A DNA stretch of 33,010 bases from the NCBI GenBank assembly GCA_015066665.1, contig SVNX01000024.1, forward strand, positions 1 to 33,010, written 5' to 3'. Positions 27,343 through 33,010 of the stretch are shown here, one piece after another. A model generated the notes under the pieces. The model made no database searches and was not told the DNA's origin. It worked only from the letters and a program-made list of their open reading frames with translations. Source of the stretch: Ruminococcus sp. GTDB lineage: Bacteria; Bacillota; Clostridia; Oscillospirales; Ruminococcaceae. The position numbers and the translations under genes are program-made. Each line of letters begins with the position of its first letter. Position 1 is the stretch's first letter.

Positions 27343-27369
27343 AAACACCCCGCCAATGGCGGGGTGTTT
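27343..27369 (+). terminator. Rho-independent terminator of the carboxypeptidase gene
   Basis: AAACACCCCGCC (27343-27354), loop AAT, GGCGGGGTGTTT (27358-27369): a 12-pair perfect stem. The right arm also begins the MITE-like element. Confidence 0.85.
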
Positions 27370-27632
27370 GAGACTGTCGAAAAAACTTCAAAAGATACTG
27401 CGGAGCAGCCTGAGGATTCCAAAGGGAATCATTCCCTTTGGCAGGGGGTCAAGGGGGACAGAGTCCCCCTTGCATGGTTCTGCAAAAATAGCCTCTATAT
27501 TTGGCTGAAAAATGTCCTCAGTCTTTAGTCTTGGTTTACCTTCCTCTGCGATGCGTGAGCGAGCAGACGCACTGTCCCATTGTCCCATAAAATAAATTGG
27601 TCTTTTCGACAAGCTGAAACACCCCGCCAATG
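27358..27632. mobile_element. MITE-like noncoding element with terminal inverted repeats
   Basis: The left end (27358-27388) starts GGCGGGGTGTTTGAGACTGTCG; the right end read in reverse complement (27628 down) starts GGCGGGGTGTTTCAGCTTGTCG. They agree at about 25 of 29 positions. AAT flanks both ends, suggesting a target duplication; AAACACCCCGCCAATG is a direct repeat at 27343-27358 and 27617-27632. Inside are a CCAAAGGGAA/TTCCCTTTGG palindrome and a GGGGGAC/GTCCCCC hairpin, but no transposase. The region 27311-27749 holds no gene. Confidence 0.6.
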
Positions 27633-27749: not shown

Positions 27750-28097
27750 TCATGGTGATTTGGCTTCTTTTCTTTGAGCCTGTGCCTCCAGAAGTTCTGC
27801 GATGAGGTACTCTACTTTCCCCTTATCCCGTTCTGATAAGCAGTGCCAGCTATGCAACAGATTCTGTTCATCTTCGCTGAGTGACTGTTCGTCTCTATGC
27901 TTTTGATGACCAGCCAGATAATCAAGGCTTACTCCATAATATTCCGCAAGCTGAATCGCTCTCATAAATGGGAGTTCACGTTCTCCCTTTTCATATTTTC
28001 CATAATACTGTGCTGTTGTGCCTAAAAATTCAGCAACCTCTGTTTGTGTTTTGTCAGAGTCCTCTCTCAAATCACGAATCCGTTTGTACAAAGCCAT
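27750..28097 (-). CDS. XRE-family helix-turn-helix transcriptional regulator
   Basis: This 115-residue protein has an N-terminal Cro/CI-type helix-turn-helix (about 4-60), with KTQTEVAEFLGTTAQYYGKYEKGER as the DNA-reading region and SLDYLAG at its end. The C-terminal half (QNLLHSWHCLSERDKGKVEYL) is helical, likely for dimerisation. The ATG at 28097 is preferred: AGGGAG lies 8 bases upstream, whereas an in-frame GTG at 28106 sits almost on it. It is the first gene of the AT-rich island, and is divergent from a perfect promoter bracketed by inverted repeats, so it probably represses that promoter and itself. Confidence 0.88.
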   Translation of the reverse strand: MALYKRIRDLREDSDKTQTEVAEFLGTTAQYYGKYEKGERELPFMRAIQLAEYYGVSLDYLAGHQKHRDEQSLSEDEQNLLHSWHCLSERDKGKVEYLIAELLEAQAQRKEAKSP

Positions 28098-28125
28098 AAA
28101 TGACACTCCCTTCTATAAAGATTTT

Positions 28126-28399: not shown

Positions 28400-28675
28400 T
28401 AATACAATTTTGTCTAATACAAACGAAATGCTATCACTATTCACATAAACTTTTAAAAAACTCATTTTTCCCTCATTATTTTCTTCAATGGCATGTTTCA
28501 GTCCTTTTTTGCAACTTAGTAATTTGTGATAACTACCTAACTGTTGATTAAGTTCGAAGCAAGTGTAGAAACTAGACAACGTAATGTCTATTTTAAACAT
28601 GGAAGAGGATCTACACAGCTAAAATGAATATTTTTTAAATTTCGTCAAAACACACCTCATTTTCATCGAAAAGCA

Positions 28676-28704
28676 TTGAAATTTTATAAGAAATGTGGTA
28701 TAAT
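28676..28704 (+). promoter_or_regulatory. Sigma-A promoter of the radical-SAM peptide cluster
   Basis: TTGAAA (28676-28681), a 17-base spacer, TATAAT (28699-28704) with an extended TGTGG before it. A ~170-base leader follows, containing a 9-codon frame (MKKEIWSNL, near 28762) with no supported role. Confidence 0.75.
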
Positions 28705-28882
28705 AAAAATGTTGGGTGCCAAGTTCGACAACAATACTGTTTGATATGCTTATAAACGCTATGAAGAAGGAAATTTGGTCGAATCTATAAAATTCAAATT
28801 AAGAAAAAAGACACATTGGATTTTTCAGAGAAAAGACTTTCCGATCATGGTATATGTTAATGTGTCACTAAAGGAGATTTCT

Positions 28883-29062
28883 ATGTATAAAATGCAGGAA
28901 GAAGAATTTGATAAAATCAAGGCTACAAAAAAGCCAGAGCTCTGCAACCACGAGTTTGTAAAGTTATATACGCTTGGCACACATAGTGATTATGGATGTT
29001 TACTGTGCAAGGTTAAAACATTAACTCCAGAGTTGTTTTGTGACAAAAGGGAGAACGAATAA
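28883..29062 (+). CDS. Small protein with CxH...CxxC motif, 59 aa, first gene of the peptide cluster
   Basis: ATG 28883 is preceded by AAAGGAG (8 bases upstream). The 59-residue product has cysteines 22, 39, 42 and 53 and His24: LCNHEF, then GCLLCK, like a small zinc-binding ribbon, and a charged N-terminal third. It precedes the radical SAM gene by 61 bases under the same promoter. It could be an accessory zinc protein or a modified precursor peptide; its even spread of charge and no obvious leader/core break favour the former. No family recognised. Confidence 0.65.
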   Translation: MYKMQEEEFDKIKATKKPELCNHEFVKLYTLGTHSDYGCLLCKVKTLTPELFCDKRENE

Positions 29063-29123
29063 ATGTGCATATTAATTCTGTGTAGAATTGGCAATAATTT
29101 CTGAAAAATGGAGGAACTATAAC

Positions 29124-30467
29124 ATGCAAGGATCTTATAATGAAAATTTAGAGCAGAAATATAAAGTTCCGGATTGGGTCTTCTATAGGCTTTATGGCGA
29201 TAAAACATTTGTATATAACACAGAAGCATCACAAACTTTCGTTTTCAATGCAATCGTAAAGTATATTTTAGATGATTGTTGTGAGTATAAATCTCCAAGA
29301 GAGGTTTCAGATCATCTTATCCAAATGTTTGATTTTGGAGATTTAGAAGATTATGAAGTTCAGAATGAAATCGAAGGATTTATTAAAAACTTGCATACAG
29401 AAAATATTCTCGTAAAGGAAAACGAACTCTCAGAAAATAATGGAAATGATTTTGAATTCAGCTTAAGACGAGTTCACATACCTGATGCACAACTAATATC
29501 AGCTCAAATTGAGCTTACATATAGATGTCAGGAACGATGTAGGTATTGCTATTGCGTAACGGATAAGCCCACAAGGGAAGAACTGAGTACACCTGAAATC
29601 AAGCGGCTTTTAGATGAATTGTCTGATATGAATGTTCTTGATGTTATTTTTACTGGAGGAGACCTGTTTGTTCGTGAAGATGCATTTGAGCTTTTAGATT
29701 ATGCACATAGCAAACGCTTTCTTATTGATGTATTTACAAATGGGATCGCTTTAACGGATGCGGATTTAATTCACCTCAAATCACTGCATCTGCGTTCAAT
29801 ACAATTTACTATTTATAGTCATATCCCTGAAAAACACGACGCTTTTACTCAAGTAAATGGTTCTTTTGAAAAAACCATAAAAACCATAAAAAAATGTGTA
29901 ACTTTAGGTATACCTGTCAATATAAAAGCTATGGCAATGAAATGCAACAAAGATGATCTTGAAAATATTCTATTGTTAGCAAAAGAACTTGGCGCCACTA
30001 TACAAGTTGGTATGTATGTAAGCGCAACAAATAATGGAGATTTAAAACCGACAAAATACCGTTTTGAATGTACACAGGACTATATTGATGCAATGAAACT
30101 TGTTAATAAATATACACACAGTAATAATTATCCGGTAGATCCTTTCACCGATGAAGATCCTATATGTACCGCAGGTACTTCTACTATATATATTAATCCA
30201 TATGGTGATGTTTTTGCTTGCAATTCCCTGATACTATCGTGTGGCAATATAAAAGACAAATCAGTCCGAGAGATATGGCATAATTCAGAGATTATAAATA
30301 AAATAAGACGTTTAAAAAAGAAAGACATAAAGTGTCTTCAGAAATGTGAAAAAAGTAAATTTTGTGATTTTTGCCCCGGAAGTGCGTTGTTAGAGTCTGG
30401 TGATTGGTTGCAAAAATACGATGAAGCATGTAGATTTGCAGAAGCCAAGATGGTATTAAACTCTTAA
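29124..30467 (+). CDS. Radical SAM/SPASM peptide maturase with N-terminal PqqD-like domain
   Basis: This 447-residue enzyme has the architecture of RiPP maturases. Residues about 15-100 resemble a PqqD-like RiPP recognition element, which grips leader peptides. Residues about 125-330 are the radical SAM barrel, with LTYRCQERCRYCYC (Cys135, 139, 142) for the SAM-binding cluster and FTGGD (177-181). Residues about 345-440 are a SPASM domain binding two further clusters: Cys348, 366, 373, 404, 408, 414, 417 and 436, including CLQKCEKSKFCDFC. The start at 29124 has GGAGG 9 bases upstream; an in-frame TTG at 29088 does not. Such enzymes make thioether or carbon-carbon links. A 47-codon frame starts 18 bases after it. 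Confidence 0.93.
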   Translation: MQGSYNENLEQKYKVPDWVFYRLYGDKTFVYNTEASQTFVFNAIVKYILDDCCEYKSPREVSDHLIQMFDFGDLEDYEVQNEIEGFIKNLHTENILVKENELSENNGNDFEFSLRRVHIPDAQLISAQIELTYRCQERCRYCYCVTDKPTREELSTPEIKRLLDELSDMNVLDVIFTGGDLFVREDAFELLDYAHSKRFLIDVFTNGIALTDADLIHLKSLHLRSIQFTIYSHIPEKHDAFTQVNGSFEKTIKTIKKCVTLGIPVNIKAMAMKCNKDDLENILLLAKELGATIQVGMYVSATNNGDLKPTKYRFECTQDYIDAMKLVNKYTHSNNYPVDPFTDEDPICTAGTSTIYINPYGDVFACNSLILSCGNIKDKSVREIWHNSEIINKIRRLKKKDIKCLQKCEKSKFCDFCPGSALLESGDWLQKYDEACRFAEAKMVLNS

Positions 30468-30485
30468 ACAAAGGAGGTGTAATTA

Positions 30486-30629
30486 ATGAATACAAAGCGA
30501 CCTAAAATGCAACTCCCTAAAATGATAGATAAAATCAACTATCAGCAAATAGTAGTGAGTTTATATGAGAACTATAGAAATCCTTTGGCAAAATGCAACT
30601 GCAATAGTGTCAACATGAAAAAATATTGA
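30486..30629 (+). CDS. Putative RiPP precursor peptide, 47 aa
   Basis: This ORF, too short for most gene callers, starts at ATG 30486, 5 bases after a perfect AAAGGAGGTG and 18 bases after the radical SAM gene. The 47-residue product has a basic, Met/Lys/Pro-rich start (MNTKRPKMQLPKM), an amphipathic middle (IDKINYQQIVVSLYENY) that could be recognised by the PqqD-like domain, and a C-terminal core NPLAKCNCNSVNMKKY with two cysteines spaced Cys-Asn-Cys-Asn. Position and leader/core layout fit a radical SAM-modified peptide, with one or two Cys-based thioether links possible. This is inferred; no known precursor family is recognised. Confidence 0.72.
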   Translation: MNTKRPKMQLPKMIDKINYQQIVVSLYENYRNPLAKCNCNSVNMKKY

Positions 30630-30712
30630 TATCTGATTAAACAAGTCTTAAAAATGCATTAGTAGCATTAAAATTGTGGTTTCTGCAACATTGAATCAAA
30701 TCTACATAAGGT

Positions 30713-30746
30713 GGGCTCTGCTGAAAATGATGCAGAGCCCATTTTC
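30713..30746 (+). terminator. Rho-independent terminator of the radical-SAM peptide cluster
   Basis: GGGCTCTGC (30713-30721), a 10-base loop, GCAGAGCCC (30732-30740), followed by ATTTTC. The AT-rich gap 30630-30712 has no gene. Confidence 0.8.
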
Positions 30747-30849
30747 ATATATAAGGAAAATAGATCAGTCACCACTAATAACATTATAGTGCAATATATC
30801 ATTAGGATACACTATAATTTCACCCCACCACCAAATGCAAATTATCTAA

Positions 30850-32091
30850 CTACCCTGCCTGCCTCACACAATAATTACTGAACCTGTTGAAGCTGACAAC
30901 ACAGATCTCCGCTTCATAAAATGCATCGCAGTAATCGGTAACACTATCAAACAGCTTATCAAGCTCCTGCTTTGTGCAGTGCCAGTCGAGCGATTCGGGA
31001 AGTTTCACCAGAACTGTGTGACTGCCATTTTGGAAAACATAATCAAAAATATCGTTATACTGCCGTTTTGCGTCCTTCGGGATGTGAAACGGCAGTTTCT
31101 TTATGCATTCAGAAAGTTGCTTCTCCAGAGCGAATTCATTGAGCTGAGTTAGAATTCCATTTGCAACGTCACTCGGCGCTGTAACCAATCTGCTCACGTT
31201 CAGATAAAAGAATCTATGCCAGAAATCCACATAGGAGTTGAGGATAGAGTAGTGGTGCTCCTTGACTTCAATCAACCCAACAGCAATTAGTGCATCAAGG
31301 TATTTTTTACACTGATTATTCGGAACAGCCATGTGCTTGGCGATTTCACTCAAGCGGTGCTTCCCTCTTGCAATAGCATACAGAATCTCATGATAAGACT
31401 CAGGCGTACGGAATTGCTCGCTTAACATCTGTGGCATCAAATGATACAACATGGAGTCTGTTGAAATCCAGCCGTTTAGATTATCAAAAAAAGACTTAGT
31501 CTCATCATAATCATTCAGCAAAGCAGACAGACCACCTGTAACAGCACACAACCTTGCAACATCCACTGCGCTCATTTTTTGAGCGTGTTTTTTTATATCC
31601 ACTGATGTGTACAATGGTACTCTGAATAGCTCATGTTTCCCGAACGAAGCCTCGCATCGACAAGGCAATAAAAACAGGTTCTTCATATCCGTCAACGATT
31701 CGGAAAGCTGTTCAATTGCAGTGATAACTTCAGATTCAGACTTGCTGTGTTCCAGATCATCAAGAACGACTTTGGTATAGTGCTTCTTGAAAAATGGAAC
31801 AAGGCACCGAAATGCTTCCTGCCACGTCATTGCAGAGGATAAGTCGCACCACACACTGAACGTGCGCTTAAACTGTGCAAGCGCAGTGCGGTGGTCAAGT
31901 CCTCGAAAGCTGAAATACATATTGCATTTTGTATTCTGTGTAAAGCTTAGCGCAAGCTGTGTCTTGCCCGTTCCCGAAATGCTGCATATTTTAATAATAC
32001 GGTCACGCACATGATTCTCGATACAACTACGCAGATGAGATGTGATTCTGCGCTGTAACTCTTCCAAGTGAATCTGTATATTCAATTTCAT
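30850..32091 (-). CDS. AAA-type ATPase of the archaeal-ATPase/DUF234-like group
   Basis: This 413-residue protein has a P-loop SISGTGKT (37-44) and Walker B VVLDDLE (108-114), followed by a winged-helix segment (about 250-300, RLSEIAKHMAVPNNQCKKYL) and YSILNSYVDFWHRFFYLN, a hallmark of ATPases with DUF234-like tails. The last ~100 residues should hold the DUF234-like domain, but I see no nuclease motif. Such ATPases are scattered in mobile DNA and have no agreed role. GGAGG is 7 bases before the ATG and a strong promoter precedes it; it is convergent with the peptide cluster. A role in defence or in the island is possible but not shown. Confidence 0.78.
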   Translation of the reverse strand: MKLNIQIHLEELQRRITSHLRSCIENHVRDRIIKICSISGTGKTQLALSFTQNTKCNMYFSFRGLDHRTALAQFKRTFSVWCDLSSAMTWQEAFRCLVPFFKKHYTKVVLDDLEHSKSESEVITAIEQLSESLTDMKNLFLLPCRCEASFGKHELFRVPLYTSVDIKKHAQKMSAVDVARLCAVTGGLSALLNDYDETKSFFDNLNGWISTDSMLYHLMPQMLSEQFRTPESYHEILYAIARGKHRLSEIAKHMAVPNNQCKKYLDALIAVGLIEVKEHHYSILNSYVDFWHRFFYLNVSRLVTAPSDVANGILTQLNEFALEKQLSECIKKLPFHIPKDAKRQYNDIFDYVFQNGSHTVLVKLPESLDWHCTKQELDKLFDSVTDYCDAFYEAEICVVSFNRFSNYCVRQAG

Positions 32092-32613: not shown

Positions 32614-33010
32614 ATGAAAAAACTCGAAATAAAATCCTGCGAAGAAATCATGAGCACTGCATACAAACCGCTTGAATACTGCGTTGACGGTTTGCTTACA
32701 CAGGGATTGTATATTCTTGCAGGTGCGCCGAAAGTCGGTAAGTCGTGGTTAGCTCTTGACATCTGTCTTTCGGTTGCAAAAGGTGAAGATGTGCTGAAAC
32801 ACCGGACGAACATCGGCACTGCACTCTATCTTTGCCTTGAGGACAGCTACCACCGTATTCAGAATCGTTTGTATGAGCTGACGGATGAACCAACAGAGAA
32901 TCTGTATTTTGCAATCATGTCGGAATCTCTCGGTAACGGATTGGAGTCGCAGATTGAAAAATTCAAATCAGAGCATTCTGACACAAAGCTGATTGTAATT
33001 GATACCTTAC
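32614..33010 (+). CDS. RepA-like AAA ATPase (DnaB/RecA-type fold), partial at the right edge
   Basis: Only the first 132 codons are present; the gene runs off the window. The visible part begins MKKLEIKSCEEI, then LTQGLYILAGAPKVGKSW with the Walker A motif GAPKVGKS (37-44), ALYLCLEDSYHRIQNRL (the E-D motif of this ATPase family), and ends at a Walker B-like KLIVIDTL (125-132). This resembles the RepA/AAA_25 replicative ATPases of plasmids, phages and integrative elements in Firmicutes, so it probably marks the start of a mobile element. The ATG has AAAGGA 9 bases upstream. Confidence 0.8.
   Translation, partial: MKKLEIKSCEEIMSTAYKPLEYCVDGLLTQGLYILAGAPKVGKSWLALDICLSVAKGEDVLKHRTNIGTALYLCLEDSYHRIQNRLYELTDEPTENLYFAIMSESLGNGLESQIEKFKSEHSDTKLIVIDTL

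Follow-up and report, generated by a model that had tools for sequence, protein, structure and literature searches.

The window analysed here is an entire contig (C15; 33,010 bases) of a 2.03-Mb genome comprising 40 contigs. Its G+C content begins to drop to about 33% at around 28.0 kb and amounts to 32.8% over positions 28676–30748 compared with 55.6% over 1–27500, in agreement with the AT-rich island noted in a preliminary description of this DNA. The elements which that description had placed there, namely a promoter-like site, a small cysteine protein, a maturase gene, a peptide ORF and a hairpin, were all located in the sequence, each on the plus strand. The first of them, TTGAAA-17-TATAAT at 28676–28704, agrees with the consensus at 11 of 12 positions, is the best of 10 promoter-like sites within 28500–30900 and may serve the transcript. 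Such sites are, however, no more common in that interval than in shuffled sequences (10 versus a mean of 12.9). A 59-amino-acid protein with a CxH...CxxC pattern is encoded at 28883–29062. Its likely start is the ATG at 28883, located behind AAAGGAGA, and not that of one of the longer TTG or ATG frames.

The gene of the putative peptide maturase (447 amino acids; 29124–30467) starts with an ATG preceded by the Shine-Dalgarno sequence GGAGGA (29110–29115). Directly downstream lies a 47-amino-acid ORF (30486–30629), a candidate precursor peptide with two C-terminal cysteines (CNC). Its putative core, delimited by analogy with the cysteine-containing C-terminal parts of the peptides of relatives, would consist of residues 31–47 including C37 and C39 (30576–30626). 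The perfect ribosome-binding site attributed to this ORF is indeed present: AAAGGAGGTG at 30470–30479, six bases 5' of the ATG at 30486, is found at this one place in the 33 kb, against an expectation of 0.02 copies. The postulated terminator corresponds to a strong hairpin at 30708–30745 (−23.2 kcal/mol; z scores of −5.0 and −3.9 for stretches of 48 and 71 nt, respectively), yet one that is missing from the list of a strict terminator scan, its loop comprising 10 bases and its T run being short. Within the contig, whose end at 33010 is 2.3 kb to the right, the earlier statement that no transporter is visible holds, as neither a transporter nor a peptidase was seen beside the cassette; export genes may lie further to the right, past the contig end. 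Neither a tRNA nor an Rfam match reaching the gathering score was found anywhere in the window.

Several other features are found in the surroundings of these genes. On the opposite strand, 0.8 kb upstream, a gene for an HTH_3 repressor-like protein (27750–28106; HTH_3, 55.4 bits; PHROG 8, E 4.8e-19) lies where the AT-rich stretch begins on the left. Over 197 bases, its DNA is 66.5% identical to that of a phage contig from human faeces, and it is possible that the gene represents a regulator or a phage remnant. Just left of the AT-rich stretch there is an inverted repeat (27354–27386 and 27600–27632) of 33 nt with 85% complementarity and a distance of 213 nt between its arms, while the repeats listed for the window include no direct repeat that obviously brackets the cassette. 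On the right, a 413-amino-acid ORF on the minus strand (30850–32091) faces the cassette. Its winged-helix matches are below cut-off (HTH_45, 22.2 versus 25.5 bits), its PADLOC match to PDC-S27 is weak (40.5 bits, residues 166–294), and its distant relatives (18 records, on archaeal and Rhodothermus plasmids) are annotated as ATP-binding proteins.

The maturase and its relatives

Sequence comparisons and a predicted structural model provide good support for the 447-amino-acid protein being a RiPP-type peptide maturase composed of RRE, radical-SAM and SPASM domains and thus of the SkfB/AlbA/StsB type. It matches the Pfam families PF04055 (72.6 bits) and PF13186 (SPASM; 39.1 bits) above their cut-offs. 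The CX3CX2C radical-SAM cluster motif (29526–29549) is made up of C135, C139 and C142, and the SPASM domain (30165–30431) holds seven candidate auxiliary-cluster cysteines (C348, C366, C404, C408, C414, C417 and C436). The CX3C spacing at 404–408 is one residue longer than the CX2C of most aligned relatives including L049, the nearest one. The N-terminal PqqD-like RRE (about residues 19–97; 29178–29414) falls short of the cut-off in Pfam (E 0.024), but we count it as present because a profile built from the window, L049 and L203 matches one of six PqqD-like sequences with a probability of 91.5%, and because of the topology of the model, in which residues 19–92 form three strands followed by three helices (mean pLDDT 89.8). 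For L049, the PqqD match exceeds the cut-off (25.8 versus 23.4 bits). The PqqD–radical SAM–SPASM enzyme with the expected cluster cysteines that had been described initially is confirmed by these data. Among solved proteins, SkfB ranks first in the single-sequence search (72.8 bits, residues 125–411). Profile matches to solved peptide maturases comprise SkfB, PqqE and the entries 5wgg and 5v1q, which we take to be CteB and SuiB, respectively; entry 5wgg is matched by the profile of alignment A5 over positions 15–399.

Each of the best 25 of 61 NCBIfam matches scores far below its cut-off. We therefore regard the protein as a peptide maturase by its domains but as a member of none of the named families. 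The highest score was obtained for AhbD (146.5 bits), and that for NirJ2 was 140.9 bits; with cut-offs of 500 bits each, identity with these heme enzymes was rejected. AlbA (92.4 versus 850 bits) and SkfB (83.6 versus 300 bits) also score far below their cut-offs. Membership in the StsB/streptosactin family was dismissed based on the StsB score (NF045574; 101 versus 625 bits) and on the 47-amino-acid ORF, which matches no NCBIfam family up to E = 1 and hence is not a precursor of the StsA type (NF045558). A role in defence as a prokaryotic viperin was likewise discarded because the PADLOC match to pVip covers only residues 130–282 of 447 (profile positions 8–161 of 262; 48.6 bits).

Alternatively, the enzyme might act on a protein or a small molecule unrelated to either ORF, for example as a radical-SAM protein of heme synthesis or enzyme maturation, and the 47-amino-acid ORF might be no gene. 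Such a function would be in line with AhbD and NirJ2 heading the NCBIfam matches, and with an ORF that has no detectable relative and no codon bias. We consider it unlikely in view of the large distance to the family cut-offs, of the ORF being framed by a perfect Shine-Dalgarno site and a hairpin, and of the RRE, a leader-binding domain according to PMC7470986.

Searches with the single protein revealed no close relative of the maturase in the genomes of 150 relatives (with E up to 1e-3), of 396 members of the family (1e-20), or of 394 members of the order and 398 of the phylum (1e-28), samples that may overlap; apart from the window itself, none of the matches listed for them exceeds 35% identity, and most are partial. 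No close relative was found in genome_contigs with the single protein or in viral_contigs with either the single protein or alignment A4, and A1 retrieved from viral_contigs only relatives of 20–29% identity (69 loci). With the single protein, identity reached at most 26% in the phage collection and at most 28% among the matches listed for the plasmid collection. As a query, alignment A1 yielded at least 382 relatives, and 80 loci were retained from these. The best among the matches listed is L049 from Ruminococcaceae bacterium AB4001 (39–40% identity; 39% over residues 8–442). A class-level search of 391 genomes with A4 added L203 and L204. L203 is 33% identical to the window's maturase over 320 residues, and within 16 genomes of the family to which the L203 genome belongs, a match (E up to 1e-35) was present only in that genome itself. 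A tree with 43 rows groups the window with L049 (99/95), then with L203 (97/85) and L031 (88/91, not starred). This group sits in a 23-row clade (96/90, drawn open) together with L081, L060/L046, L032/L072 and a group of 13 rows, and the clade is rich in maturases that have a peptide ORF adjacent to them.

Candidate substrates and the peptides of related loci

L049, the locus of the nearest relative found, bears on the choice of a substrate. As in the window, a peptide ORF lies directly downstream of the maturase gene and is followed by a hairpin; it encodes 35 amino acids including two cysteines, and its ATG overlaps the maturase stop codon. The locus differs from the window in that a gene for the 59-amino-acid protein is missing. 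According to Pfam, the five large neighbours within 9.3 kb comprise proteins with GXGXG and pyridine-nucleotide oxidoreductase matches, presumably of the glutamate-synthase type, an ammonium transporter with P-II, a glutamine synthetase III and one unknown protein, and no peptide exporter or peptidase is among them. By eye, the L049 peptide cannot be aligned with that of the window except for a K/R-P near the N-terminus. We know of no characterisation of this cassette.

Short cysteine-tailed ORFs are also frequent in the remainder of the clade. An ATG-initiated ORF of 28–75 codons with at least two cysteines in the last 25 residues was present within the set distance in 14 of 20 clade loci as compared with 80 of the 370 genes from all loci that served as controls (Fisher p about 1e-5), whereby the criteria were fixed after the peptides had been viewed, the controls contain duplicate loci, and the count excludes the second maturase of L046 as well as the long-branch row L081. 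With controls taken from the same loci only, the association becomes weaker (14 of 20 versus 13 of 39; p 0.012). The six loci without such an ORF are L203, L031, L060, L046, L069 and L074. In the case of L203, the second-nearest relative, there is an upstream 69-amino-acid candidate of another type, and the contig of L031 begins 56 bases before the gene; for L060, L046 and L074, candidate peptides were accepted by eye.

A leader motif, [YF]x[KR]P with a hydrophobic residue after it, is common to many of the clade peptides. It was put to a leave-one-out test based on 13 clade segments. The picked peptide ranked first in 13 of the 15 loci of relatives, peptides and segments having been chosen by eye; L203, L031 and L069 were omitted as they lack such a peptide, and L048 and L130 as near-duplicates of L045 and L033. 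The 47-amino-acid ORF of the window matches the motif weakly (rank 16 of 386; rank 35 of 395 in a first version of the test with segments of 15 relatives, some from outside the clade). Lack of the motif in the window peptide is not decisive because it is also absent by eye from the peptides of L032 (rank 1 of 59) and L072 (rank 7 of 108). The L060 peptide has a partial motif (rank 6 of 100). Another clade peptide, that of L071, shows a weak match to StsA (24.7 bits versus a cut-off of 42).

The survey of related loci also led to some observations on the peptides as such. Plasmids of E. coli (L045:2656–2772; NZ_LT985265.1) and Photobacterium (L048:2582–2698; NZ_CP150463.1) encode an identical 38-amino-acid cysteine peptide, MSYSKPTVLAK...GRPCNPPGPSGR, which is absent from the listed CDS (the plasmid gene table being incomplete). 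The radical-SAM genes downstream of it encode proteins that share 77% identity. The peptide DNAs differ at 17 of 117 bases, and all 17 differences are synonymous. Nearly identical cores are found in L033, from a genome of the window's family, and in the viral contig L130; megablast gave no match among 20,395 E. coli records. In three plasmids, a recombinase-family gene adjoins the peptide–maturase cassette, on its strand in L045 and L048 and on the other one in L046, and L032 and L033 are flanked by pieces that we take to be integrase-like, which suggests that cassettes of this type are mobile. A further peptide family, distinguished by the stretch GSYAAGC, is encoded upstream of Bacteroidota maturases (L062:1355–1477, L068:1029–1154, L070:3164–3301, and L082, which begins 208 bases before the maturase). 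In L062, L068 and L070 the maturase gene is followed by one whose product starts with a D-x-H-x-HVG-like stretch, presumably a metal hydrolase.

Taking these results together, the maturase and the 47-amino-acid peptide make up the best reading of the locus, given that L049 has the same two-gene form and that 14 of the 20 clade relatives have a cysteine-tailed ORF nearby. The 47-amino-acid ORF is probably the substrate. Its position directly downstream of the maturase gene and its unique Shine-Dalgarno site support this part of the preliminary proposal. On the other hand, Pfam, NCBIfam and other searches outside the plasmid collection detected no relative (best matches E 0.016 or worse), the leader match is the weak one mentioned above, and codon usage fails to set the ORF apart from the short ORFs around it. 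Of the two adverse signs named beforehand, the lack of conservation of the 47-residue sequence is thus the one that these searches showed.

The preliminary description had also included the 59-amino-acid protein in the cluster, and we do not retain it there. Its only convincing homologues found are the products of 55-codon genes in two Coprococcus phages (54% identity), situated in the head-gene region just before the portal gene, and no homologue occurs in the other collected maturase loci, many of which have only 1.5 kb of flank. For these reasons we consider the protein to be probably a phage-derived neighbour that is no part of the RiPP cassette. Scans of viral sequences with it yielded nothing. 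A weak match (E 0.008, the only one besides its own genome) is due to chance, being antisense to what we take to be an S16-like ribosomal protein gene, and a plasmid match at E = 1 was also attributed to chance.

Nevertheless, the protein might itself be modified by the maturase, instead of or besides the 47-amino-acid peptide. It is encoded 61 nt upstream on the same strand, contains four cysteines, and its KKPEL stretch scores highest (8.9) against the leader motif among 24 ORFs of the 28.1–31.0 kb interval, above the 47-amino-acid ORF. The phage homologues preserve the CxH and CxxC positions, a pattern suggestive of zinc binding, but not KKPEL; in addition, no Coprococcus phage is among the matches listed for the maturase search of the phage collection. 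Together with its absence from the other maturase loci, this makes the 59-amino-acid protein an improbable substrate. Even less probable is that the locus stems from a larger imported cluster which lost its transporter and peptidase and of which a decayed or inactive remainder is left. The AT-rich island, the phage-like neighbour and the missing export genes would be compatible with it, but the maturase frame is intact, the cluster cysteines are present, and L049 likewise consists of two genes whose large neighbours include neither a peptide exporter nor a peptidase. It appears most improbable that the maturase captured a zinc-type protein from a phage head region, with a newly gained leader-like KKPEL stretch, as a second substrate or partner beside the 47-amino-acid peptide, forming a three-gene unit with a role between host and phage (e.g. 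as a modified decoy or inhibitor).

Predicted chemistry and comparison with known systems

In sactisynthases, the RRE binds the leader of the precursor and auxiliary clusters assist in thioether closure. We favour, with a fair degree of confidence, a horizontally acquired two-gene RiPP cassette whose maturase modifies the 47-amino-acid peptide, import by horizontal transfer being probable. The N-terminal RRE of the maturase would bind the leader of the peptide, and the radical-SAM cluster would generate a 5'-deoxyadenosyl radical by which hydrogen is taken from a core residue. The SPASM auxiliary clusters might then help to join the thiol of C37 and/or C39 to that residue, resulting in a thioether (sactionine or related) and in the loss of 2 Da per link on these cysteines. 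Radical formation, hydrogen abstraction and thioether closure are the steps described for sactisynthases (PMC8172795). Sactionine rings with a single intervening residue are known from the QMP family (PMC13361665), so that short rings would be possible. On balance, we lean towards such cysteine thioether chemistry as the predicted modification. Leader removal and export could be accomplished by proteins encoded elsewhere, or else the product may act inside the cell. By analogy with streptosactin, it may putatively serve as a self-acting antimicrobial or as a signalling peptide.

To the maturase group formed by the window, L049, L203 and L031, our analysis adds an orphan two-gene RiPP cassette that lacks visible export genes. 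The window's maturase is 33–40% identical to those of L049 and L203, and the candidate peptides of the group are very different. If the 47-amino-acid peptide is the substrate, the group shows that peptides with hardly any sequence in common can be served by related maturases, which would bear on the prediction of RiPP products and on leader engineering.

Clark and Seyedsayamdost reportedly compiled an atlas of radical-SAM RiPPs in 2022. This atlas is cited in PMC10352776. With SkfB and AlbA, the maturases of sporulation killing factor and subtilosin, the window's enzyme shares the order RRE–radical SAM–SPASM, but it scores far below the respective NCBIfam cut-offs and its candidate peptide is unrelated to theirs. 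Moreover, SkfB and AlbA operons carry export and protease genes, none of which were seen beside the window's maturase. Among the maturases of ranthipeptides (CteB, PapB), CteB likewise combines RRE, radical-SAM and SPASM domains. The precursors of this class are characterized by a repeated cysteine pattern, which is lacking in the 47-amino-acid peptide. GggA and GggB of the streptosactin system presumably correspond to NCBIfam StsA and StsB. As described in PMC8172795, a short precursor with cysteine thioethers is encoded there beside a radical-SAM/SPASM maturase, an arrangement resembling the one found here, and the clade peptide of L071 weakly matches StsA. The streptosactin cluster also includes a protease and regulators (PMC8172795), whereas no protease was seen beside the window pair, and the HTH repressor-like gene upstream of it is on the other strand. 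Considering these similarities and differences, the cassette looks like one more member of a large and already known class of peptide-modifying systems and not like a new kind.
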